Origin: Streptomyces lonarensis
Lineage (GTDB): Bacteria; Actinomycetota; Actinomycetes; Streptomycetales; Streptomycetaceae
Assembly: GCF_012033735.1 (NCBI RefSeq)
Contig: NZ_JAAVJD010000036.1
Location: forward strand, 1 to 32,367
Length of the DNA stretch: 32,367 bases
Direction: 5' to 3'
The notes below the pieces were generated by a model that was not told the DNA's origin, ran no database searches, and worked only from the letters and a program-made list of their open reading frames with translations. The translations under genes and the position numbers were made by a program. Positions 473 through 11,297 of this stretch are shown piece after piece (within the stretch, counting starts at the first letter, position 1; each line of letters opens with the position of its first letter).

Positions 473-913
473 GGACCAACCTTTCATAGAACCTTTCAGG
501 GAAGGGTAGAGACGGGGCAGCGACCGCAATGCCCCCAGGTGAACTGGGAGCATTGCGGTGAGCTGCCTGCGCCAGTACACCAGCTCCCCTCCTGCGTAAC
601 TGACGCCAGCGCCCAGAGCCCAGCTGAAGACTCCGACACCGACTGATGCGGTCGGGCCGAAGGCGCTGGCCATGGTCATCACCCCGGAGTGAGCCGCAGC
701 CTGAACGCCACTCGCGCAACCGCCCGCAAGACTGAAGGCGGTACTGGCGAGATCGGAAGCGTCGTCAAACGACAGGAGTCCGGTGGGGTAGATGCGGTTG
801 ACGGGGTCGCCTTCGGCGTAGAGGTAGGGGTTCTTCTCCTGGCCGGAGGGGTCGGGTTGGGTGAAGCGGCCGATGCGGGGCTCGGAGTAGAGGGCGGAGA
901 GGTGGTAGACGAG
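293..913 (-). pseudogene. Orphan RHS C-terminal module A (core remnant plus tip)
   Basis: Read from 913 downward, the frame starts directly after an in-frame TGA (914-916). It encodes the RHS core end (YHLSALYSEPRIGRFTQPDP ... GDPVNRIYPTGL), then a tip beginning LSFDDASDLASTAFSLAGGC and rich in Gly/Ala/Val. No start codon precedes the core; the first is a GTG at 682 inside the tip. It is therefore a displaced 3' end of an rhs gene. The core carries substitutions relative to the full-length gene (YYDP to YSEP, IDPTG to IYPTG). The frame continues without a stop into a hydrophobic 59-residue segment (293-472) that looks like a separate immunity protein, so the toxin's own stop may have been lost. 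Confidence 0.75.
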
Positions 914-929
914 TCAGGCCCCCTGGGCG

Positions 930-1196
930 TTACGCCGTGCCGGGAGCCTGGCGCTGATCGCGGGCAGACGTGTCGGCCCGGGCCTGGGTGTCGCGACGCG
1001 TCACGTACTGCGCCAGAGCTGCGAAGAGCAGGAACGCGGCGGTGAAAAATGCCGGTATGGCCACTCCGGTCTCTTCCGAAACCAGCGCGGCGCCCAGGAG
1101 CAGAAGCCAGACCAGCGCCCAGAGCAGATAGAACCAGCGACTGAGCCGCACCACTTTCGCGTAGGTCTTGCCTAACGGGAATCGCTTCGATGCCAT
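930..1196 (-). CDS. 88-aa two-TM membrane protein, copy 1 (candidate immunity protein)
   Basis: ATG 1196 is preceded by TAGGGG. The protein has a basic N-terminus (MASKRFPLGKTYAKVVRLSR), a first helix (FYLLWALVWLLLLGAAL), a second helix (VAIPAFFTAAFLLFAALAQY) and a charged tail (TRRDTQARADTSARDQRQ). A near-identical copy lies at 6621-6887. In both places it is the second small gene after the type-1 RHS tip, about 240 bp beyond the 45-aa gene with a hairpin between. Its stop lies 16 bp ahead of the core remnant of orphan A, so it marks the 3' end of one cassette. A role in immunity is inferred from position and membrane topology only. Confidence 0.7.
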   Translation of the reverse strand: MASKRFPLGKTYAKVVRLSRWFYLLWALVWLLLLGAALVSEETGVAIPAFFTAAFLLFAALAQYVTRRDTQARADTSARDQRQAPGTA

Positions 1197-1434: not shown

Positions 1435-1572
1435 TCACTCGACCCCGTTCTCATCTCTTCCGCCGTACACGACGGCGAGAACTATGAAACCAATCACGGA
1501 GGCCACTCCGACGCTGATCCAAACCCAGGGAGGAGCTCCCAGCGACACACCTTTGGCAATTAGTTCGTTCAT
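1435..1572 (-). CDS. 45-aa single-TM protein, copy 1 (candidate immunity peptide)
   Basis: ATG 1572 opens MNELIAKGVSLGAPPWVWIS, followed by a hydrophobic helix (VGVASVIGFIVLAVVYGG) and the tail RDENGVE; TGA at 1435-1437. An A/G-rich GAAGAGGAAAAG stretch upstream serves as the RBS. It begins 26 bp after the stop of orphan B. It is a paralogue of the 45-aa gene at 7124-7261, which follows the full-length rhs at a 22-bp spacing, and it resembles the 42-aa gene at 3535-3663. Conservation of start, length and position argues that it is real despite its size. The function is inferred, not shown. Confidence 0.7.
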   Translation of the reverse strand: MNELIAKGVSLGAPPWVWISVGVASVIGFIVLAVVYGGRDENGVE

Positions 1573-1598: not shown

Positions 1599-2414
1599 CT
1601 ATGACATAATCTCGGAAGTAAGGTAGCCAGCGGCAAACCCCACACCGACGCAGACACCAGCCGCCACGGCTCCGCCCACACCTGCCGTGGGCGCGGCAAT
1701 CAGTCCCGCTCCGAAGGCGCACGCTGACTGGCCGGCCACGCCCCCGACCATGCCGACGAGACCGTCTACCGCGGCGTCCAAGTCCCCGTTGAGGGTGTCT
1801 TCGACGACGGAGTTGGCGTCAGACAACGTCAAGAGGCCGCCTACAGCTCCGACCGCGCCAGCGGCCCACAGTCCGGTGGGGTCGATGCGGTTGACGGGGT
1901 CGCCTTCGGCGTAGAGGTAGGGGTTCTTCTCCTGGCCGGAGGGGTCGGGTTGGGTGAAGCGGCCGATGCGGGGCTCGTAGTAGCGGGCGGAGAGGTGGTA
2001 CAGCCCGGTAGCGTCCTGGTAGCCGCCGGCGAAGCGGTGGAGCTGGTCGATCTCCTCGGTGGTGTGGGCGGTGCGGGGCACGCTGCGGGGACTGTAGCTG
2101 TACGCGTTGAGGCGGTCGCCGTCCTCGTCGATGACGGCGACCACCGACCCAATGGCGTCGGTGACGAAGCAGTGCGCCTCTCCCTCCCGGGTGAAGGAGT
2201 CGAGGGTGCCGCCGGGTTCGCGCACGAAGCCGGTATCAACCTCGTCGGTGGTGGTCGCGGACAGGCCGAGCGGGCCGTGCTGGAACTCGCAGTGGGTCGC
2301 GGACCCCGTGCCGGACCCCGCAAGGGCTCGCGGCACGCTGCTGACAAGTCCCAGGACCGCCACAGATCGCCGCGACGGCCCACCGTCGCCACGGAGCGGA
2401 GTGGTCAGCTGCAC
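1599..2414 (-). CDS. Orphan RHS C-terminal module B (type-1 tip) with a new possible start
   Basis: The 271-residue frame opens at GTG 2414 (GGAG just upstream), 18 bp after the stop of the 62-aa gene at 2433. The first 45 or so residues are unrelated to Rhs. From HGPLGLSATTTDE onward it matches the full-length Rhs through IGRFTQPDPSGQEKNPYLYA and NRIDPTGL. The tip WAAGAVGAVGGLLTLSDANS...YLTSEIMS is almost the same as that of the intact rhs. A Cys pair (SACAFG, GVCVGV) lies in the Gly/Ala-rich part. It is probably a displaced cassette. Unlike A, C and E it has a start codon, so it could be translated as a short cytoplasmic protein. It pairs with the 45-aa gene downstream. Confidence 0.65.
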   Translation of the reverse strand: MQLTTPLRGDGGPSRRSVAVLGLVSSVPRALAGSGTGSATHCEFQHGPLGLSATTTDEVDTGFVREPGGTLDSFTREGEAHCFVTDAIGSVVAVIDEDGDRLNAYSYSPRSVPRTAHTTEEIDQLHRFAGGYQDATGLYHLSARYYEPRIGRFTQPDPSGQEKNPYLYAEGDPVNRIDPTGLWAAGAVGAVGGLLTLSDANSVVEDTLNGDLDAAVDGLVGMVGGVAGQSACAFGAGLIAAPTAGVGGAVAAGVCVGVGFAAGYLTSEIMS

Positions 2415-2432: not shown

Positions 2433-2621
2433 CTACGCAGGCGACCTCAGGTAGTAGACGCATCCGGCGGCCACCGGGAGCATCGGCACGGCGCTCACCA
2501 GAGCCGTTCTCCACTGGCCCAGAGCAAGGGTCGTCACGAGCAGGCATGCCGTCATCACGAGGAATCCCAGCATGACGATGCGGAGCCCACGCCCCGGCTG
2601 CCATCTCGCTGCTCTACTCAC
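2433..2621 (-). CDS. 62-aa two-TM membrane protein (candidate immunity for module C)
   Basis: GTG 2621 lies 7 bp after the stop of orphan C, with GAGGG upstream. The protein begins MSRAARWQPGRGLR and has two hydrophobic helices (IVMLGFLVMTACLLVTTLAL and ALVSAVPMLPVAAGCVYYL). The tight spacing to the tip and the small membrane topology fit an immunity gene of the preceding toxin. I do not recognise a named family. Confidence 0.6.
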   Translation of the reverse strand: MSRAARWQPGRGLRIVMLGFLVMTACLLVTTLALGQWRTALVSAVPMLPVAAGCVYYLRSPA

Positions 2622-2628
2622 GCTGCCC

Positions 2629-3036
2629 TCAGTTCCTGAGTGAGATCACGGTCAAGGCGCCGCCGACGATGCCGAGGCTTCCGCCGATCGCGCCGCCCGC
2701 GACGCTCCCCGCGCCGCACCCGGGAAGGGTGGCCACGAAGAACCCGATGCCACACCCCACGCCCGCGCCGGCCGAGGCCCCGGCTGCCCCGGACGCGGCC
2801 ACGGCACCGATGTCGATGGCGAAGTCTTCAACCGAGTAGAGGCCGGTGGGGTCGATGCAGTTGACGGGGTCGCCTTCGGCGTAGAGGTAGGGGTTCTTCT
2901 CCTGGCCGGAGGGGTCGGGTTGGGTGAAGCGGCCAATGCGGGGATCGCAGTAGTGGGCGGGGAGGTGGTACAGCCCGGTGGCTTCCTCATGCCCATCCGC
3001 GAGTACACCGTTGCCGAGCAGCTGAAGAACTACCGC
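2629..3036 (-). pseudogene. Orphan RHS C-terminal module C
   Basis: The frame is open from an in-frame TGA (3037-3039). Homology to the RHS core starts near 2986 (EATGLYHLPAHYCDPRIGRF) and runs through GDPVNCIDPTGL. The 69-residue tip starts YSVEDFAIDIGAVAASGAAG and contains GVGCGIGFFVATLPGCGAGS, then AIGGSLGIVGGAL, ending VISLRN. There is no ATG/GTG/TTG before the tip, so it is silent as it stands. The upstream bases (2987-3036) do not belong to rhs and mark the recombination junction. Core substitutions (ARYYDP to AHYCDP, NRIDP to NCIDP) suggest it is not under selection. Confidence 0.75.
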
Positions 3037-3160: not shown

Positions 3161-3376
3161 CTAACCGAAGAGCAGGTAGTAGAGGAAGTAGACGCCAGCC
3201 AGCACCATTAAGGCTCCAGTTATCACGGCGGTAAACAGTGCAGCAAATCTCCAGAACTTCGAGGAAGAGCCAAACCCTTCACGCATCGTGACCATTATTC
3301 CGGCCGCGAAGCGCCGCCTAAAGAGGATAAATCCGCAACCGGAAACTACCAGAAGAGCCGCAGCCAGGATCTCCAC
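3161..3376 (-). CDS. 71-aa membrane protein (FRxRFA family, candidate immunity)
   Basis: I choose GTG 3376 because AGGGGG precedes it and because it gives a protein of the same length as its neighbour at 3697-3909. The sequence has an N-terminal helix (EILAAALLVVSGCGFILF), the motif RRRFAAGIM, a short loop and a long C-terminal helix (LFTAVITGALMVLAGVYFL). The neighbour has the same plan with LVVFRNRFARSAM. An upstream GTG at 3433 would give 90 aa. It is the third small gene after orphan E. Function unknown; immunity is inferred from context. Confidence 0.55.
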   Translation of the reverse strand: MEILAAALLVVSGCGFILFRRRFAAGIMVTMREGFGSSSKFWRFAALFTAVITGALMVLAGVYFLYYLLFG

Positions 3377-3534
3377 GATCGACCACCCCCTAAACGAGTC
3401 AGAAGCCAAAGGAAGAAAATTCGCTCCAGCCACCCCGGGCCGGGGCAGGCTCTATTGTGGCTTGGCCCGCAGTGCCACGAGAGGCTTCATTAGCCGCTTA
3501 GGCGACTTGGAGGCCACCGCCACGGAGTGAGGCG

Positions 3535-3663
3535 CTACCGATCCATGCCTCTATGCCGCACCAACGTAACAATGGCGACAACAGAGAGGGCACCGATTCC
3601 GATTCCGATACCCACCCACGGCGGCAGCTTCCCCCAATCCTCACTCGCAATTATTCCCAACAT
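3535..3663 (-). CDS. 42-aa single-TM peptide
   Basis: ATG 3663 has a strong AGGAGG 8-9 bases upstream. The peptide begins MLGIIASEDWGKLPPWVGIG, has a helix (GIGIGALSVVAIVTLV) and ends RHRGMDR; TAG at 3535-3537. Its layout (short polar start, P-P-W-V-G, GALSVV helix, basic tail) matches the 45-aa peptides at 1435-1572 and 7124-7261 (PAWVG...GALSVVGF). It lies between the two FRxRFA-type genes on the same strand and is probably co-transcribed with them behind orphan E. Confidence 0.6.
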   Translation of the reverse strand: MLGIIASEDWGKLPPWVGIGIGIGALSVVAIVTLVRHRGMDR

Positions 3664-3696: not shown

Positions 3697-3909
3697 TCAC
3701 GGGTTGACAACCAAGCCAATTATCCCGATGACCACAAAGACAAGACCAAACACCACCGCCGCCCACTTCGCCGACTCCTCATATAGCCCCGATTCTTTCA
3801 ACTTGAACAACTGAATCCCACTCGCCATCGCTGAGCGCGCAAATCTGTTGCGAAATACAACCAGGCCACTTCCGAACAGAATGGAAAACACCGGAATCAC
3901 TATATTCAT
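3697..3909 (-). CDS. 70-aa membrane protein (FRxRFA family, candidate immunity for module E)
   Basis: ATG 3909 is preceded by AGGGAGG. Sequence plan: MNIVIPVFSILFGSGLVVFR, then NRFARSAMASGIQ, a charged middle (FKLKESGLYEESAKW) and a C-terminal helix (AAVVFGLVFVVIGIIGLVV) ending NP. It starts 58 bp after the stop of orphan E and is the first gene of a run of three small membrane genes. It shares its architecture with 3161-3376. The plan (hydrophobic, RF-A, charged linker, hydrophobic) recalls small DUF6199-like membrane proteins, but I cannot confirm that family. Confidence 0.65.
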   Translation of the reverse strand: MNIVIPVFSILFGSGLVVFRNRFARSAMASGIQLFKLKESGLYEESAKWAAVVFGLVFVVIGIIGLVVNP

Positions 3910-3967: not shown

Positions 3968-4888
3968 CTAGAACTGGTGCGTGTACCCTCCAGAGCATCC
4001 TGGGGAACTAAAATACCCTGTTCCGATCGAGCCGGAACTGAGACCAGTCGCCTCCCAGGACAGTGGCCCAGCACCGCAGGAGCCGTACCCGGACCCCCCA
4101 CGTGAGTATCCGTAACTCGTTCGGAACCCGCCAGATATTGACACGGGCCAGCCCACCCCGATGCTCGTCATCGCGCCGGTCTCTCCCGTGTCAACGTTTC
4201 TGTTAACTCCTGCGCCCACGCAGACGATTACGCAGACTTCGCCTGAGAAGCTGATTCCCCAGTCGAGGCCGGTGGGGTCGATGCGGTTGACGGGGTCGCC
4301 TTCGGCGTAGAGGTGGGGGTTCTTCTCCTGGCCGGAGGGGTCGGGTTGGGTGAAGCGGCCGATGCGGGGGTCGTAGTAGCGGGCGGAGAGGTGGTACAGC
4401 CCGGTGGCGTCCTGGTATTCGCCGGCGAACCGGTGGGGCTGGTCGATCTCCTCGGTGGTGTGGGCGGTGCGGGTGACGCCGCGGGGGCTGTAGCTGTACG
4501 CGTTGAGGCGGTCGCCGTCTTCGTCGATGACGGCGACGACGGAGCCGATGGCGTCGGTGATGTAGTAGTGGCTGCGGCCGTCGCGGGTGAAGGAGTTGAG
4601 GGTGCCGCCGGGTTCGCGGACGAAGCCGGTGTCGGCCTCGTCGGTGGTGGTGGCGGACAGGCCGAGCGGGCCGTGGTGGAAGTGGGTGTCGCCCAGGCGG
4701 ACGCGTTCGCTGTTGTCGGTGGAGGCGTACTCCCCCGCGTACTCCTGGCCGGCGACGGTGACACCGGTGAGCTGGGAGAAGGCCGACCACTGGCCGTCGG
4801 TGCGGGTGGTGGCCTCCGTCGGCGCGGCCGCGGTCTCGTTGCCGGCAGCAACTGGATTCGATACGTGCCACCCCGACCGCGCCGGGGA
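3968..4888 (-). pseudogene. Orphan RHS C-terminal module E
   Basis: This is the longest displaced module. From an in-frame TGA (4889-4891) the frame runs about 306 codons. RHS homology begins near 4848 (AAGNETAAAPTEATTRTDGQ) and continues at almost full identity with the intact gene to NRIDPTGL. The tip (DWGISFSGEVCVIVCVGAGV ... PGCSGGYTHQF) differs from the others: it is Ser/Gly-rich, probably beta-structured and has four cysteines. No start codon occurs between the stop and the tip, so it is a silent cassette. The FRxRFA-type and 42-aa genes follow it. Confidence 0.8.
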
Positions 4889-4923: not shown

Positions 4924-5190
4924 CTACTTGTTCCGCTCAATAGTTGCGAAGAGACCGAGGCCGCCGCACAGCGACAACCCTCCCCCAAGCAGGAAAGCCC
5001 AATTGAACGACTCGGCATTGAGAAACAAGGAAAGAAATATAGCACCAAATAGCACCCCTACTGCAGCAAGTATCCTCGCCCTCGCGACTGCGCTCACGTA
5101 TCCAACCCCTCTCCAAATGCAGCGCCAGACCAGAGGCGTGGGGTCAACCGAAACTCCATGAACCCACACCTCCGGGCCAATGTCAAACAT
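4924..5190 (-). CDS. 88-aa membrane protein (candidate immunity of a lost module)
   Basis: ATG 5190 opens MFDIGPEVWVHGVSVDPTPL. Two hydrophobic helices follow (AAVGVLFGAIFLSLFL and AFLLGGGLSLCGGLGLFA), ending ERNK. It ends 35 bp before the open frame of orphan E, the position that the 88-aa copy-1 and 62-aa genes occupy ahead of orphans A and B. No RHS tip is recognisable between it and the IS element, so its cognate tip was probably lost. Confidence 0.5.
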   Translation of the reverse strand: MFDIGPEVWVHGVSVDPTPLVWRCIWRGVGYVSAVARARILAAVGVLFGAIFLSLFLNAESFNWAFLLGGGLSLCGGLGLFATIERNK

Positions 5191-5496: not shown

Positions 5497-6314
5497 GTGA
5501 GTGTAGATCTGTCGCAGCGGCTGGTTCCTGACGGTCTGTGGGAACTGGTTGCCCCGTTGCTGCCGTCGTTCAACTCTCGTCCGCAGGGCGGTGGGACGGC
5601 GCCGCTGGACGAGCGCGCCGTGTTCGCGGCTGTGGTGTACGTGCTGACCAGTGGGTGTGCCTGGCGGTATCTGCCGGAGACGTTCGGGGTGTCGCCCGCT
5701 ACGGCGCACCGGCGGTTCACCGCGTGGACCGAGGCGGGACTGTGGCGCCGGTTGCACCGGGCAGTCCTGGACGAACTTGGCGCCCGGGGTGAGATCGACT
5801 GGACCTCGGCGATCGTGGACGCCGCGTCGGTGCGGGCGAAAAGGGGGGCTCGCTGACCGGGCCGAACCCGGTCGATCGCGGCAAGAAGGGCAGCAAGCTG
5901 CACGTGTTGTCCGAGGCCCAGGGCCTTCCGCTCGCCGTGGCCGTGTCCGGCGCGAACATGCACGACAGCCTCGCCCTCAAGTCGCTGATCCGCGGGATAC
6001 CCGCCATCCGCTCCAGGCGCGGACCTCGTCGGCGCCGCCCGGTCAAGCTCCGGGCCGACAAGGCGTACTTCTCTGCTGACCACCTCTCCTGGCTGCGTGA
6101 ACGGGGACTTGTCCCGCGCATCGCCAGGCCGGGAATCGAGTCCGGCGAACGTCTCGGCCGGCACCGCTGGAAGATCGAGAGATCGATCGCCTGGCTCTTC
6201 GGCTACCGACGGCTCACCGTCCGATACGAGCGAAAGGGCTCCCACTTTCTCGCCTTCCTCGGCCTGGCCGCCACGCTGACCTGCTACAAGAAACTCACGA
6301 AACTCACCACGTGA
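5497..6314 (+). CDS. IS5-family DDE transposase made by -1 frameshift
   Basis: ORF A (5497-5856, GTG start, 119 codons) has the N-terminal DUF4096-type region (DLSQRLVPDGLWELVAPLLP) and the first catalytic Asp in AIVDAAS (residue 108). ORF B continues in the -1 frame to 6314 with the second Asp in LRADKAYF (6057-6059) and the Glu in WKIERSIAWLFGYRR (6177-6179). The frames join at an A4G6 run (5839-5848), a typical slippery site for this group. The fused product would be about 272 residues, normal for IS5/IS427-type transposases. All three catalytic residues are present. Confidence 0.9.
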
Positions 6315-6620: not shown

Positions 6621-6887
6621 TTACGCCGTGCCGGGAGCCTGACGCTGCTCCCGGGTTGGCGCGTCGGCCCGGGCTTGGGCGTCGCGGCGCGTCACGTACT
6701 GCGCCAGAGCTGCGAAGAGCAGGAATACGGCGGTGAAGAAAGCCGGTATAGCCACTCCGGCCTCTTCTGAAGCCAGCGCGGCGCCCAGGAGCAGAAGCCA
6801 GACCAGCGCCCAGAGCAGATAGAACCAGCGGCTCAGCCGCACCACTTTCGCGTAGGTCTTGCCTAACGGGAATCGCTTCGATGCCAT
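6621..6887 (-). CDS. 88-aa two-TM membrane protein, copy 2 (candidate immunity protein)
   Basis: It is almost identical to the protein at 930-1196 (MASKRFPLGKTYAKVVRLSR and both TM helices). Differences lie mainly in the charged tail (TRRDAQARADAPTREQRQ). I choose ATG 6887 over ATG 6893 because the TAGGGG box abuts the latter and because copy 1 starts at the equivalent codon. It is the second small gene downstream of the intact rhs. Strong protein conservation with drift in the surrounding DNA suggests that both copies were kept by selection. Confidence 0.7.
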   Translation of the reverse strand: MASKRFPLGKTYAKVVRLSRWFYLLWALVWLLLLGAALASEEAGVAIPAFFTAVFLLFAALAQYVTRRDAQARADAPTREQRQAPGTA

Positions 6888-7017
6888 GCCCATCCCCTAC
6901 CCGAAATGAACTGGCTAAATCACCGGAACAGGCAACATACGGCCCGGCACATCCGATGCTGCAAGCATGGGCGGCAGTGGACGAGGTCCCATTCACGAAA
7001 TCCGGAGAGAGGGGAGG

Positions 7018-7123: not shown

Positions 7124-7261
7124 TCACTCCGCCCCGTTCCCTTCCCTCCCACCATAAATGATGGCAAGAATTACGAAACCGACGACACTCAGCGCTCCGA
7201 TTACGAGTCCAACCCAAGCCGGAAGCCCCAGCGAAGCGCCTTTAGCGACTAGTTCGTTCAT
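7124..7261 (-). CDS. 45-aa single-TM protein, copy 2 (candidate immunity of the intact Rhs)
   Basis: ATG 7261 follows AAGGAAAATC and begins MNELVAKGASLGLPAWVGLV; a helix (IGALSVVGFVILAIIYGG) and the tail REGNGAE follow. It starts 22 bp after the rhs stop on the same strand, the classical place of an immunity gene. The paralogue at 1435-1572 has the same length and start. It is much smaller than usual Rhs immunity proteins. If the tip acts on membranes, a single-TM peptide could bind it in the bilayer. Confidence 0.7.
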   Translation of the reverse strand: MNELVAKGASLGLPAWVGLVIGALSVVGFVILAIIYGGREGNGAE

Positions 7262-7283: not shown

Positions 7284-10200
7284 CTATGACAACGCTGCAG
7301 AAGTGAGGATTCCAGCCCCGAGTCCTGCACCGACGCAGACACCAGCCGCCACGGCTCCGCCCACACCTGCGGTGGGTGCGGCAATCAGTCCCGCTCCGAA
7401 GGCGCACGCTGACTGGCCGGCCACGCCCGCGGCCATGCTTGCGAGACCGTCTACCGCGGCATCCAGGTCCCCGTTGAGGGTGTCCTCGACGACCGAGTTG
7501 GCGTCAGACAACGTCAGGAAGTCGCCGACAGCTCCGATTGCTCCAGCGGCCCAGAGGCCGGTGGGGTCGATGCGGTTGACGGGGTCGCCTTCGGCGTAGA
7601 GGTAGGGGTTCTTCTCCTGGCCGGAGGGGTCGGGTTGGGTGAAGCGGCCGATGCGGGGGTCGTAGTAGCGGGCGGAGAGGTGGTACAGCCCGGTGGCGTC
7701 CTGGTATTCGCCGGCGAAGCGGTAGGGCTGGTCGATCTCCTCGGTGGTGTGGGCGGTGCGGGTGACGCCGCGGGGGCTGTAGCTGTACGCGTTGAGGCGG
7801 TCGCCGTCTTCGTCGATGACGGCGACGACGGAGCCGATGGCGTCGGTGATGTAGTAGTGGCTGCGGCCGTCGCGGGTGAAGGAGTTGAGGGTGCCGCCGG
7901 GTTCGCGGACGAAACCGGTGTCGGCCTCGTCGGTGGTGGTGGCGGACAGGCCGAGCGGGCCGTGGTGGAAGTGGGTGTCGCCCAGGCGGACGCGTTCGCT
8001 GTTGTCGCTGGAGGCGTACTCCCCCGCGTACTCCTGGCCGGCGACGGTGACACCGGTGAGCTGGGAGAAGGCCGACCATTGGCCGTCGGTGCGGGTGGTG
8101 GCCTCGGTCGGGGCGGCCGCAGTCTCGTTGCCGGCGGCGTCGTAGGACCAGCCGTCGCTGTCGCCGTTCTTCGCGGTGATCTGCGAGGCGGCGTTGACGG
8201 TGTAGGTGGTGCCACGGGGGCAGCCGGGGCTGACGCCTTGGGAGGTGAGGTTGCCGGCGGGGTCGTAGCAGTACTGCCAGGACTCCACGATCTCACCCCC
8301 GTCCCGCTCCGCCGCGTAGGAGAAACGCCCCGCGCTGTCGTAGTCGTAGGACGTCACGTACCCCGTCAACTCATCGGTACGGGTACGGATTTTGGCCCCG
8401 TCGACCGCATCGAGCGCGTACGTGTAGGCGAGGTCGACCAGGGTGGTGTCGTCGGCCTCGGCCGTGATGCGGGTGGGGCGGCCGGAGGCGTCGAGAGTGG
8501 CGGTCTGCGTCAGACCGTGGGGATAGACAGTCTCGGTGCGTTGGTCGTTGTTGTCGTAGGTGTAGGTGGTGTCGTTGCCGTCGGGGTCGGTGAGGGTGGT
8601 GAGGCGGCCGGCGTCGTCCCAGGCGTACTCCACCGTTCCGGCGGGGTCGGTGTAGCTCTCGACGTTGCCGTCGGCGGTGTAGGCAAGGACCGTCTGCGAC
8701 CCGTTCTGCAGCGTGCGGACGGTCTCACGGGAGAGCGGGTCGAAGGCGTAGGAGACCGTGCCGGTGCTGTCGGTGCGGGAGGTGATGTTGCCGTCGCCGT
8801 CGAAGGTGTAGGAGACGGTGGTGTCGTCGGCGGTGACCTCGGTGATGCGGTCGCGGTCGTCGTAGGTGTAGGTCGTCTCGGTGCCGCGGCCGTCGGTGAC
8901 GGTGACCGGGCGGCCCAGGTCGTCGTAGGTGTAGGTGGTGGCCTCGACCGGACCGGGCGGGGCCGCCTGGACGAGGTTGCCGGTGTCGTCGTAGGTGAAC
9001 GCGGTGGTCTCGCCGTTGGCGTCCTGGGCCGTGCAGCGCTGGCCCTGGAACCCGCCGCAGTCGGGGTCGGCCGGGTTGTAGGTGTAGGAGCGGGTCCCGC
9101 CCGCCTCGCCGCTGACCGCGACGGACAGGGTGTTGCCTGCCGTGTCGTAGGAGAACTCGCTCTCCTCGCCGTCCGGCAGCGTCAATGTTCCCGGCAGGTC
9201 GGCGCCGGCGATGGTCTGGTAGCCGGTCAGCGCCGCCGTCGCGCCCGTCGGCAGCTCCGAGGAGGTGAGGTTGTTGCGGGCATCCCACCCGTAGGCGGTC
9301 ACGTTCCCCGGATCGTCCGACCCGGTGCCCATGGCGTCGGTCGCCGTGGTCACCATGTGCGCCTCGTACGTCCGCGACCGGGTCTTGCCCAGCGGGTCGG
9401 TGACCTCCTCCACCTCACCCTCAGCGTTGACCTCGTACTCCGTAGCGTGGCCCAGCGGGTCGGTCACCGTCGTCGTCCCCGCCGACCACGGCGAATCCGC
9501 GCTGTAGGTGTAGGTGAACGTCGGCCCGGTGTGACCGTCCCCGTCGAACTCCGTCGCCCGCGTCATCGACGTCACCCGGCTGTCGGCGTCGTAGGTGAAG
9601 ACCGTCACCCGCCCCTCCGGCGTGCGGACCTCGGTGACACGGCCGTCATCGTCGTAGCCGAACTCCGTCACCGCGCCCGCGGTGTCCGTCGTCGCCACCA
9701 GATCACCACCGGACAGCGTGTACCCGCCGGTGCGGCCGGAGCTGTCACTCACCTCCCAGACGTCGGAGCCCTCCCGGGACAGCTCCACCCACCGGCCCGA
9801 CCGCTCCTCCGTCATCACCAGGCCGTCCCGGCCGGAGGAACCCGTGCGCTCGACGGTGATCGTGCCGCCGTTGCGGTCGGTGACCTCCAGCAGGTTGCCG
9901 TCGGCGTCGTAGCGCTCCTTGCTGCCCGAGGACCGGTCGGTGAGGGTGAAGGAGTAGTCGGCGTGTTCGACCAGGTCCCAGCTGTACCCCTCCGGCGTGA
10001 CGAACCCGCCCTCACCGTCCATCTCGAACTGCACGGTCGCCCCGGTGGAGTCGTACCAGACCACCATGCCGTTCCAGAAGGTGTCCAGCCAGCGCTCGCC
10101 ACCCACCCACCACCGGTCCGAGACGTTCCCGAACGGCCCGTAGAGCGAGTTGTAGGTGCGGTCCAGCAGCAGGTTCTGCCCCACTCCAGCGATGTCGGCG

Positions 10201-10640
10201 TCAGTGGCCGTCAGCATCAGGTTCCCGTTGGACAGGTTGATCCGGGCCACCAGCGCATCCGTGATCCGGATGTCGGAGATCTGATGCCAGGGCACATCAC
10301 CCTGGCCGTCCGAGAGCCAGTTGAGAATCTCACCGGCCTCGGCCGGCGCCACAGCCTCGGTCTCGCTGCCGGGCCGGCGGGCCTCCCGCCACTCCCGCAC
10401 CTCCGGGTCCAGCGGCGCAGCGCGCTCGTTCGGCGGCGCCTGCGTCGTGCCCACGACAACCGGCGGGACCGCCGCATCACCCCCCTCGCCCCACACCGAA
10501 CCCCCGGCGACGTCGTCCGCCGCCGACGCGGTCCCCGGCAGCGCACTCACCGCAACTGCCACGACCGCGGCAGCCACCACCGCAGCCCTCATCTGGTTCC
10601 GGGCACGCCGAACCGGCGCGCCATGAGCGCGTATTCGCAC
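7284..10640 (-). CDS. Secreted RHS/YD-repeat polymorphic toxin protein
   Basis: I choose GTG 10640 (GGGGGGATCT upstream), giving 1118 aa; a GTG at 10652 would add four residues. A Sec signal peptide spans about residues 1-40 (cleavage after GTASA). A DUF6531-like region follows (near LVARINLSNGNLMLTATDAD). More than ten YD repeats form the shell (YDADGNLLEVTDRNG, YDDLGRPVTVTDGRG and similar). The RHS-associated core runs from DAIGSVVAVIDEDGDRLNAY to NRIDPTGL (about 1026-1029). The 89-residue tip is hydrophobic and Gly/Ala-rich with two Cys (SACAFG, AGVCVG) and no nuclease or deaminase motif. In this family the repeats form a cocoon holding the tip, which is delivered to rivals. Putative immunity genes follow at once. 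It shares core DNA with four orphan modules. Confidence 0.9.
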   Translation of the reverse strand: MRIRAHGAPVRRARNQMRAAVVAAAVVAVAVSALPGTASAADDVAGGSVWGEGGDAAVPPVVVGTTQAPPNERAAPLDPEVREWREARRPGSETEAVAPAEAGEILNWLSDGQGDVPWHQISDIRITDALVARINLSNGNLMLTATDADIAGVGQNLLLDRTYNSLYGPFGNVSDRWWVGGERWLDTFWNGMVVWYDSTGATVQFEMDGEGGFVTPEGYSWDLVEHADYSFTLTDRSSGSKERYDADGNLLEVTDRNGGTITVERTGSSGRDGLVMTEERSGRWVELSREGSDVWEVSDSSGRTGGYTLSGGDLVATTDTAGAVTEFGYDDDGRVTEVRTPEGRVTVFTYDADSRVTSMTRATEFDGDGHTGPTFTYTYSADSPWSAGTTTVTDPLGHATEYEVNAEGEVEEVTDPLGKTRSRTYEAHMVTTATDAMGTGSDDPGNVTAYGWDARNNLTSSELPTGATAALTGYQTIAGADLPGTLTLPDGEESEFSYDTAGNTLSVAVSGEAGGTRSYTYNPADPDCGGFQGQRCTAQDANGETTAFTYDDTGNLVQAAPPGPVEATTYTYDDLGRPVTVTDGRGTETTYTYDDRDRITEVTADDTTVSYTFDGDGNITSRTDSTGTVSYAFDPLSRETVRTLQNGSQTVLAYTADGNVESYTDPAGTVEYAWDDAGRLTTLTDPDGNDTTYTYDNNDQRTETVYPHGLTQTATLDASGRPTRITAEADDTTLVDLAYTYALDAVDGAKIRTRTDELTGYVTSYDYDSAGRFSYAAERDGGEIVESWQYCYDPAGNLTSQGVSPGCPRGTTYTVNAASQITAKNGDSDGWSYDAAGNETAAAPTEATTRTDGQWSAFSQLTGVTVAGQEYAGEYASSDNSERVRLGDTHFHHGPLGLSATTTDEADTGFVREPGGTLNSFTRDGRSHYYITDAIGSVVAVIDEDGDRLNAYSYSPRGVTRTAHTTEEIDQPYRFAGEYQDATGLYHLSARYYDPRIGRFTQPDPSGQEKNPYLYAEGDPVNRIDPTGLWAAGAIGAVGDFLTLSDANSVVEDTLNGDLDAAVDGLASMAAGVAGQSACAFGAGLIAAPTAGVGGAVAAGVCVGAGLGAGILTSAALS

Positions 10641-11297
10641 AGATCCCCCCACGGGATGTCATGGACGGCGCACACCGCCGTCACAGCCCGTGCACCTTCG
10701 CACAGTGATCACAGGGTGACTACCGGCGATTCCCCAAAAGCCACCACACATGCGCCCCAGAACACGCCAACCCGAACAGCGCGCAGCACCACTCACTCCT
10801 CACCCACCGCAACCGAACACCGGTTCACACAACCATCGATCCACACCCAGTCACCGAACACTGCATGCACCCACCAACCGGAATGGCTGATACTCCACCC
10901 CTGCCGCTGCTGAGAACAGCTCGCCCGAGCGCCGCAGAGAGTACGAGGAGCTCGGGCGAGGTGAAGCGCACCGCGCAGATTCGTGGTTCACCGCCCGCGA
11001 GCAGGCCACAGGCGTCACCACCACCTACCCCTGGCGACACCCTGGCCGCCGGCCTCACGCTGCACGCTCCGGGCACGGGCGCCCTCCTGGCATCCGACCG
11101 CCGGCGCCCACAGCAGCTGGGATGCCGCAGCCGGGGGCGTGAGGCCGTCGCCGCGATCCCGGCCGCGGAGGAGGACAGCACGGACCAGCACCGCACGGAC
11201 GGACCCACAACGCCATCGCTTATTCATGGTAGTTTTTACCGCGCATCCGGGGTGATACCCGATTCGCTGCCACTCGAAGTCTGGCGAAGAGGACAAC
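10641..11297. other. Intergenic region upstream of rhs and of the multi-HTH gene
   Basis: About 650 bp between divergent genes, presumably with both promoters. An 11-bp inverted repeat (CTCGCCCGAGC at 10920-10930 and GCTCGGGCGAG at 10950-10960) stands out. A short plus-strand frame beside it (YEELGRGEAHRADSWFTARE) looks weakly protein-like but is not continuous. The first 200 bp are unusually A/C-rich. I see no gene I can support. Confidence 0.5.

Follow-up and report, generated by a model that had tools for sequence, protein, structure and literature searches.

Teneurin-like and other polymorphic toxins combine YD/RHS shells with variable C-terminal toxins and matching immunity genes, and one such C-terminal toxin is rich in hydrophobic residues (PMC13018210, PMC3482391). 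The available text of these two sources names no immunity family with a single transmembrane helix (one-TM), and that of PMC3482391 uses none of the terms "2TM", "single TM" and "transmembrane immunity". The protease motif of Rhs proteins, which precedes the variable tip, has been published as DPxG-x18/19-DPxG (PMC10684867). Tse5 (RhsP1) of Pseudomonas aeruginosa, which consists of an Rhs shell with a DUF6531 plug and a DPxG...DPxG motif, exits by the type VI secretion system (T6SS) and carries a membrane-inserting, depolarizing and pore-forming tip; its cognate immunity protein Tsi5 is a membrane protein with two predicted TM regions (PMC9637101, PMC10684867). EsxX of Staphylococcus aureus is a T7SS LXG toxin with a glycine zipper that attacks membranes, from outside as well, and it has two partner pairs, the soluble ExiAB and the polytopic, not single-pass, ExiC and ExiD. 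Against extracellular EsxX two membrane proteins are needed together, and ExiCD is also found in strains that lack EsxX (PMC12744356). The glycine-zipper killers CdzC/CdzD of Caulobacter crescentus are type I secreted and not Rhs proteins, and are matched by a small inner-membrane immunity protein, CdzI, with three predicted TM domains (PMC5380434). CDI ionophore toxins, delivered by CdiA, have polymorphic membrane-depolarizing tips with five-helix ionophore domains and matching, highly variable CdiI immunity proteins (PMC11630599).

Here we analyze a stretch of 32,367 nucleotides from Streptomyces lonarensis (assembly GCF_012033735.1, contig NZ_JAAVJD010000036.1; hereafter the window), in which three very small ORFs belong to Rhs tip modules. 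We consider it probable, at roughly 0.75, that each of these ORFs is a genuine gene whose single-pass membrane product confers immunity to membrane-active Rhs tips, alone or with a two-TM partner. In TM count, one helix against at least two, they differ from the Tsi5, ExiCD and CdzI families. Our literature search, which covered few subscription journals or preprints, did not turn up one-TM immunity genes described for Rhs tips; on that search they may be the smallest immunity proteins reported for Rhs, as a preliminary description of this DNA had thought probable.

Organization of the Rhs Locus

The genes of interest all lie on the minus strand, which the preliminary description had left unstated. 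From high to low coordinates they are:

7284..10652, minus strand: full-length Rhs/YD-repeat protein of about 1122 aa, start codon uncertain, with DUF6531 plug and RHS repeats
7284..7553, minus strand: T1a tip, 89 aa, Gly/Ala-rich hydrophobic C-terminal domain after DPTGL
7124..7261, minus strand: one-TM ORF, 45 aa, starting 22 nt after the T1a stop
6621..6893, minus strand: two-TM ORF, 88-90 aa (MASKRFPLGKTYAKVV...), which closes the T1a module
4924..5190, minus strand: orphan ORF, 88 aa, with hydrophobic segments
3968..4438, minus strand: displaced Rhs 3' end, core 4265-4438, 99-aa T4 tip 3968-4267
3697..3909, minus strand: two-TM ORF, 70 aa, starting 58 nt downstream of the T4 tip
3535..3663, minus strand: one-TM ORF, 42 aa, with a PPW motif, in the T4 module
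3161..3433, minus strand: 90-aa ORF that follows 3535..3663 and, by eye, has two hydrophobic segments
2629..2997, minus strand: displaced Rhs 3' end, core 2839-2997, 70-aa Gly-rich T2 tip 2629-2841
2433..2621, minus strand: TM ORF, 62 aa, 7 nt after the T2 tip
1599..2414, minus strand: displaced Rhs 3' end with T1b tip 1599-1868, T1b being 84% identical to T1a
1435..1572, minus strand: one-TM ORF, 45 aa, 26 nt after the T1b stop
930..1196, minus strand: two-TM ORF, 88 aa, which closes the T1b module

In this Rhs subfamily the cores are alike and the tips vary. Like Tse5, the protein encoded at 7284..10652 combines an Rhs shell, a DUF6531 plug and a protease motif: it matches the RHS_repeat (E 2e-53) and DUF6531 (E 2e-7) families as well as solved Rhs proteins (best E 2.9e-32), and a DPSG-x17-DPTGL motif starts at residue 1008, directly before the tip. 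The spacing is one residue shorter than the published x18, and cleavage at this motif is predicted. Whereas Tse5 exits by the T6SS, the window protein has a hydrophobic N-terminus that, judged by eye, is signal-like. The T1a tip (GA 0.46, hydrophobic peak 1.82) is all-helical in a structure model of low confidence (pLDDT 50), and a PDB sequence search returned nothing convincing for either the tip or the small ORF. By analogy with Tse5, the tip would most likely be released from the shell and inserted into a neighbor's membrane.

Each one-TM gene in the window shares its module with a two-TM gene. The orphan ORF at 4924..5190 is perhaps the leftover of a lost tip module; between it and the T1a module lies an IS4/5-family transposase in two reading frames (5497-6314, plus strand). 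A decayed displaced module is also visible as an Rhs core remnant with an internal stop at 776-925 (minus strand).

Three Small ORFs and Their Homologs

The three ORFs are present as first described, and their products are MNELVAKGASLGLPAWVGLVIGALSVVGFVILAIIYGGREGNGAE (7124..7261), MNELIAKGVSLGAPPWVWISVGVASVIGFIVLAVVYGGRDENGVE (1435..1572) and MLGIIASEDWGKLPPWVGIGIGIGALSVVAIVTLVRHRGMDR (3535..3663). Two of them had been placed 22-26 nt after a type-1 tip, in agreement with the gaps listed above for T1a and T1b. The good ribosome-binding sites reported for them were likewise found, as purine-rich sites upstream (AAGGA, GAGGA, and GGAGG); for 3535..3663, the spacing to GGAGG makes ATG 3663 a better start than GTG 3669, two codons earlier. 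The further claim of a plan and conserved ends common to all three holds for 7124..7261 and 1435..1572, which are homologous (60% protein identity), but only in part for 3535..3663, whose ends are not conserved and whose product is 40-43% identical to that of 7124..7261. None of 500 segment-wise shuffles reached the score of the 3535..3663 protein against the other two window proteins, and 5/500 reached its score against one-TM ORFs of its own tip class; against a third tip class, there was no excess over shuffles (329/500 reached the score). On these sequence comparisons, 3535..3663 is a looser relative of the other two, in another tip class. When 95,934 nt of strand not belonging to these tip modules were passed through the filter that selects such ORFs, it returned one, a homolog on contig C53, so that the three ORFs are more than chance would supply.

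A search of the S. lonarensis genome with the 7124..7261 protein retrieved this ORF, 1435..1572, and the third, intact copy on C53, and missed 3535..3663. A sister genome, taken as that of Streptomyces bohaiensis 11A07, holds four intact homologs of 7124..7261 and 1435..1572; the C53 copy differs from its counterpart there by a dS of 0.17 and a dN of 0.10. In the T4 unit of that genome we saw no ORF of the 3535 type at the same place; a 7124-type copy is present instead, farther downstream. A stringent search of 199 Streptomyces genomes with the 7124..7261 protein gave matches only in these two genomes, besides a chance-like match in one other, and an A2 profile search of genome contigs matched only S. 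bohaiensis 11A07. The reading of the ORFs as private to one species pair was nevertheless dropped, as searches with the T1a tip and the Rhs core revealed a wider plan. All homologs of 7124..7261 and 1435..1572 that were read keep their frame, so that the frame-disrupting changes named beforehand as evidence against these genes were not encountered. On C53 (L002/L011) and in the sister genome on contig C544 (L007/L010), an orphan one-TM ORF is followed by a row of hydrophobic ORFs and adjoins, by eye, a remnant resembling an Rhs N-terminus. The gene beside these orphan loci is the same in both species and is presumably TctA-like.

Survey of Rhs Tips in Streptomyces

A search with the T1a tip matched 10/392 Streptomyces genomes. 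Of nine loci outside the two genomes above, six show an Rhs-like frame followed by a one-TM ORF of 38-49 aa, in four cases together with an adjacent two-TM ORF of 71-77 aa (L016, L017, L018, and L020); no such Rhs frame was found at the remaining three. An Rhs-core search matched 160/392 genomes at E 1e-8; because its query consisted of the last 58 aa of the window's own core, the sample leans to relatives of that core. From the matches listed, 80 regions were picked by hand, to which 16 plasmid records were added, and 98 stretches were scanned for tips (the 80 regions, the window, L009, and 16 plasmid loci). Seven regions lacking a usable core were left out (L097, L105, L112, L128, L131, L133, and L135), and six plasmid loci escaped the pattern, most of which were read by eye (L139, L142, L143, L148, L151, and L152). 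The 97 units obtained were reduced to 85 by removing tips shorter than 50 aa and those with more than 90% likeness to another. Short tips characterize this subfamily, the majority of them hydrophobic and rich in Gly and Ala.

Absence of such ORFs beside related tips had been proposed as an argument against them. For 42/85 distinct tips, the 500 nt that follow contain a one-TM ORF of 25-55 aa preceded by a ribosome site, about six of these ORFs being, by eye, pieces of longer two-TM ORFs. The same search gave 0/85 on the opposite strand, 5/81 at 1,500-2,000 nt further on, and 1/1,700 in dinucleotide shuffles. These controls bear on the possibility that the ORFs are chance reading frames in lower-GC module DNA or decayed toxin ends. 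The GC content of the three window ORFs (0.558), below that of the Rhs body (0.702), would fit such an origin, but the single hit among 1,700 shuffles of the same DNA and the dN/dS ratios reported below refute it for the family and leave it highly improbable overall, 3535..3663 taken by itself being less certain.

A stricter pass with a reach of about 520 nt divided the 85 tips into 19 with a one-TM ORF only, 17 with both, 36 with a two-TM ORF only, and 13 with neither. The last two groups count against reading the one-TM proteins as the immunity proteins, though in some of the 13 a TM ORF is present but fails the ribosome-site filter or overlaps the tip stop. Among the 19 one-TM-only tips, 11 have no two-TM ORF within 1,300 nt (L058, L059, L062, L069, L070, L074, L084, L119, L123, L124, and L126). 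Others have a two-TM gene farther away (T1b of the window, 930-1196; L063, +529; L065, +638; L073, +697; L077, +738), which slightly lowers our confidence in the reading, and L094, L132, and L149, the latter lying outside the 1,300-nt scan, are doubtful members.

Not all tips resemble T1a. A Gly/Ser-rich class ending in KYTF or similar (L058, L063, L067, L068, L080, and 3968-4267 of the window) is unlike the helical Gly/Ala tips, yet its members are also followed by one-TM and often by two-TM ORFs. At L094/L095, a 28-aa hydrophobic ORF lies 89 nt after a tip that is not hydrophobic. A class-wide search matched 13/394 genomes, seven from the same genus and six from five other genera. Tips were readable at only two (L157 and L166) of its seven non-Streptomyces loci, as well as at two plasmid loci, L151 and L152. 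Behind none of these four did we see an ORF with the one-TM plan, a result that covers very few loci in other genera. L166 has a 63-aa one-TM ORF and L152 a 65-aa two-TM ORF.

Selection and Shape of the One-TM Proteins

The one-TM ORFs are genes under purifying selection. Comparing synonymous and nonsynonymous changes between 1435..1572 and 7124..7261, a check proposed at the outset, gave a dS of 0.96 and a dN of 0.29 (dN/dS 0.30). Among 12 one-TM pairs picked by hand, dN/dS was below 1 in all 11 for which it was computed (0.06-0.56); in the twelfth, a 27-aa ORF, dS was saturated and changes at the three codon positions numbered 5, 1, and 16.

The 34 one-TM proteins compared are 27-51 aa long (median 42.5). 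They carry on average 0.97 Lys/Arg residues before the helix and 4.06 after it, with more after it in 31/34, and this basic-residue bias suggests that the N-terminus would be outside and the C-terminus inside. The two 45-aa proteins of the window lack the basic tail and have one Lys/Arg on either side of the helix. The structure model of the 7124..7261 protein has a short helix at 2-10, a break at P14, and a helix at 15-41 (mean pLDDT 75). Within the first 26 residues, Trp is present in 27/34 and Pro in 32/34 proteins, a Trp count reached by 3/2,000 whole-sequence shuffles; Trp is also nearly invariant in the A4 set of 18 sequences, chosen by hand. The plan that recurs across Streptomyces consists of a short N-terminal stretch, P-x-W, a single TM helix and, in most members, a basic tail; it makes a weak case for unity across tip classes.

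Searches of Pfam, NCBIfam, PHROGs, and PADLOC placed the small ORFs in no confident family and gave weak matches only; in scans of 18 members, no Pfam or NCBIfam family reached E 0.001. Three of these 18 matched LPXTG_anchor (best E 0.015), through a hydrophobic stretch followed by a basic tail, as would be expected of short proteins with a cell-wall sorting signal, that is, remnants of sortase-type surface anchors. Since an LPxTG or LAxTG motif occurs in 0/34 one-TM proteins, this origin, already weakened by the missing motif, has a next to negligible probability.

Linkage with Tip Class and Module Borders

The one-TM genes are linked to tip class. Presence of a one-TM ORF agrees in 104/130 pairs of tips from the same cluster, against a permutation mean of 65.7 (0/5,000 permutations reach the observed value), and presence of a two-TM ORF in 91/130 (17/5,000). 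After L132 and L094 had been left out, which reduced 36 units to 34, a Mantel test gave a correlation of 0.57 between tip and one-TM similarity, and of 0.56 given the Rhs core (0/5,000 permutations), while Rhs core and one-TM similarity correlate at 0.12. The covariation lies mostly in related tips, because r falls to 0.10 among pairs with a tip similarity below 0.5. In this statistical sense, the position of the gene behind the toxin is tip-specific.

The ends of shared DNA locate the borders of the modules. Of 55 same-cluster pairs, 43 lose DNA similarity at most 20 nt beyond the tip stop, which means that similar tips often have partners differing in DNA. In the other 12 the similarity continues for over 50 nt beyond that stop, and seven of these 12 end within 30 nt of the stop of a TM ORF (T1a/T1b of the window, +21; L068/L080, -27; L070/L126, -1; L074/L123, +10; L076/L110, -9; L106/L121, +24; and L089/L119, +1 at the stop of a 27-aa ORF, worked out by hand). 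Of the five left, three end inside an ORF (-50 to -75), one ends 385 nt beyond it (L102/L104), and one has no ORF called (L085/L114). In a separate comparison of eight pairs, the shared DNA stops together with the one-TM ORF in four, to within one base in L070/L126, L070/L144, and L089/L119 and 10 nt on in L074/L123; L126/L144 share DNA up to 115 nt beyond the ORF stop, and three pairs end before the ORF. A module border coincides with an ORF stop in several pairs. Between the T1a and T1b modules of the window, dS is 0.15 in the core, 0.32 in the tip, 0.19 in the two-TM gene, and 0.96 in the one-TM gene, the latter being calculated from only 35 synonymous sites. This divergence peak is suggestive of the one-TM gene being the exchanged specificity element.

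The same figures could be turned around. The two-TM protein might be the immunity protein and the one-TM peptide an accessory membrane chaperone or adaptor that holds the tip or aids its release: both genes are found in the window and in 17/85 tip units, the two-TM gene is the better conserved of the two between the T1 modules (dS 0.19 and dN 0.04, against 0.96 and 0.29), and small partner proteins that aid export are known elsewhere (PMC10653861). We regard this division of roles as unlikely, given the 11 tips that have no two-TM ORF within 1,300 nt, the shared DNA that stops at the one-TM stop in L070/L144 and L070/L126, and the copies, described next, that have no Rhs core motif within about 1.5 kb, where a tip chaperone would be idle.

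Copies Away from Rhs Genes, Plasmids, and Annotation

A profile of one subclass (A3) matched 20/392 Streptomyces genomes. Three matches are the seed loci beside Rhs; among the other 17, (A/S)YKG with a subsequent P, in most cases as P-x-W, was recognized by eye in 15. A motif scan reaching about 1.5 kb to either side, the distance within which absence of Rhs was judged, found no Rhs core motif at 14 of these 15 copies. At the fifteenth (L189) there is a lone RYYD string in a different reading frame, and at L176 an Rhs-like remnant is visible by eye in its reading frame. Such copies fit orphan immunity genes, although they could also represent a family of small proteins that is related but serves a different function.

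Copies without a nearby Rhs gene would also be compatible with the one-TM peptides being themselves toxins, holin-like peptides, or the second peptide of a two-peptide bacteriocin. In being small and hydrophobic and in having a charged tail they do resemble holin-like toxins, and one of the 18 scanned members matches Hol_Tox weakly (E 0.027). Yet both presence and sequence follow tip class, and the scans cited above yielded no family at E 0.001; we therefore judge a toxin role very unlikely. Immunity, the first of two functions suggested in the preliminary description, is favored by the comparative evidence, namely presence by tip class, covariation, module borders, copies with no toxin nearby, and purifying selection, with the proviso that 3535..3663 would serve another tip class than the other two.

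The ORFs had also been said to fall below normal gene-calling limits, which is true of some members only. In an incomplete plasmid gene table, 3/7 plasmid one-TM ORFs (loci L139-L144 and L149) lie within listed genes: a 39-aa ORF of Streptomyces sp. NBC_01208 is annotated as "cell wall-associated protein" (WP_109880726.1), a 49-aa ORF of KN37 as hypothetical, and a longer version is listed for S. cyaneofuscatus. That table omits the one-TM ORFs of S. longwoodensis, S. rimosus pPZG101, S. changanensis, and Streptomyces sp. AD2-2. The Rhs core is carried by 37 plasmid records at E 1e-12, 21 of them from Streptomyces, and 10 of the 14 Streptomyces plasmid records opened are linear.

A Proposed Model for Single-Helix Immunity and Its Significance

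We propose that the Rhs shell is exported, probably by means of its signal-like N-terminus, and that the tip would be released by self-cleavage at DPxG...DPxGL, as in other Rhs proteins. Its hydrophobic, Gly/Ala-rich sequence would then attack the cytoplasmic membrane of a neighbor. Export by such an N-terminus would imply attack from outside, and a membrane immunity protein with an outside N-terminus would be well placed to meet it. In the producer, a protein of 27-51 aa would sit in the membrane with its N-terminus outside and, usually, a basic tail inside, recognize its own tip class through a P-x-W collar at the outer face together with the helix, and block insertion or assembly of the tip. 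In some classes no TM gene other than the one-TM gene was seen behind the tip, and a single helix would have to suffice; in others, including the T1 modules of the window, a two-TM gene accompanies it, and both proteins may join in a single complex. For modules with both genes, EsxX and ExiCD provide the best model (PMC12744356). Displaced tip modules would retain their immunity genes.

A bolder version of this model, which we consider doubtful, is that one helix, down to 27 residues, constitutes a complete immunity gene; that it acts as a dummy subunit blocking the glycine-zipper assembly of the tip; that the one-TM gene is the exchanged specificity element; and that many orphans decide the coexistence of strains and plasmids.

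If the ORFs are immunity genes as proposed, single-helix immunity proteins would join the known, larger ones, and Streptomyces, known for small-molecule antibiotics, would gain many protein weapons with membrane-directed tips, some of them plasmid-borne. The modules would also provide very small natural helix pairs for direct tests of recognition between a membrane toxin and its blocker. Such genes are often omitted by annotation, and orphan immunity in Streptomyces is probably undercounted. Should a single helix indeed suffice, a large and mostly overlooked layer of genes would decide which Streptomyces strains and plasmids can coexist.
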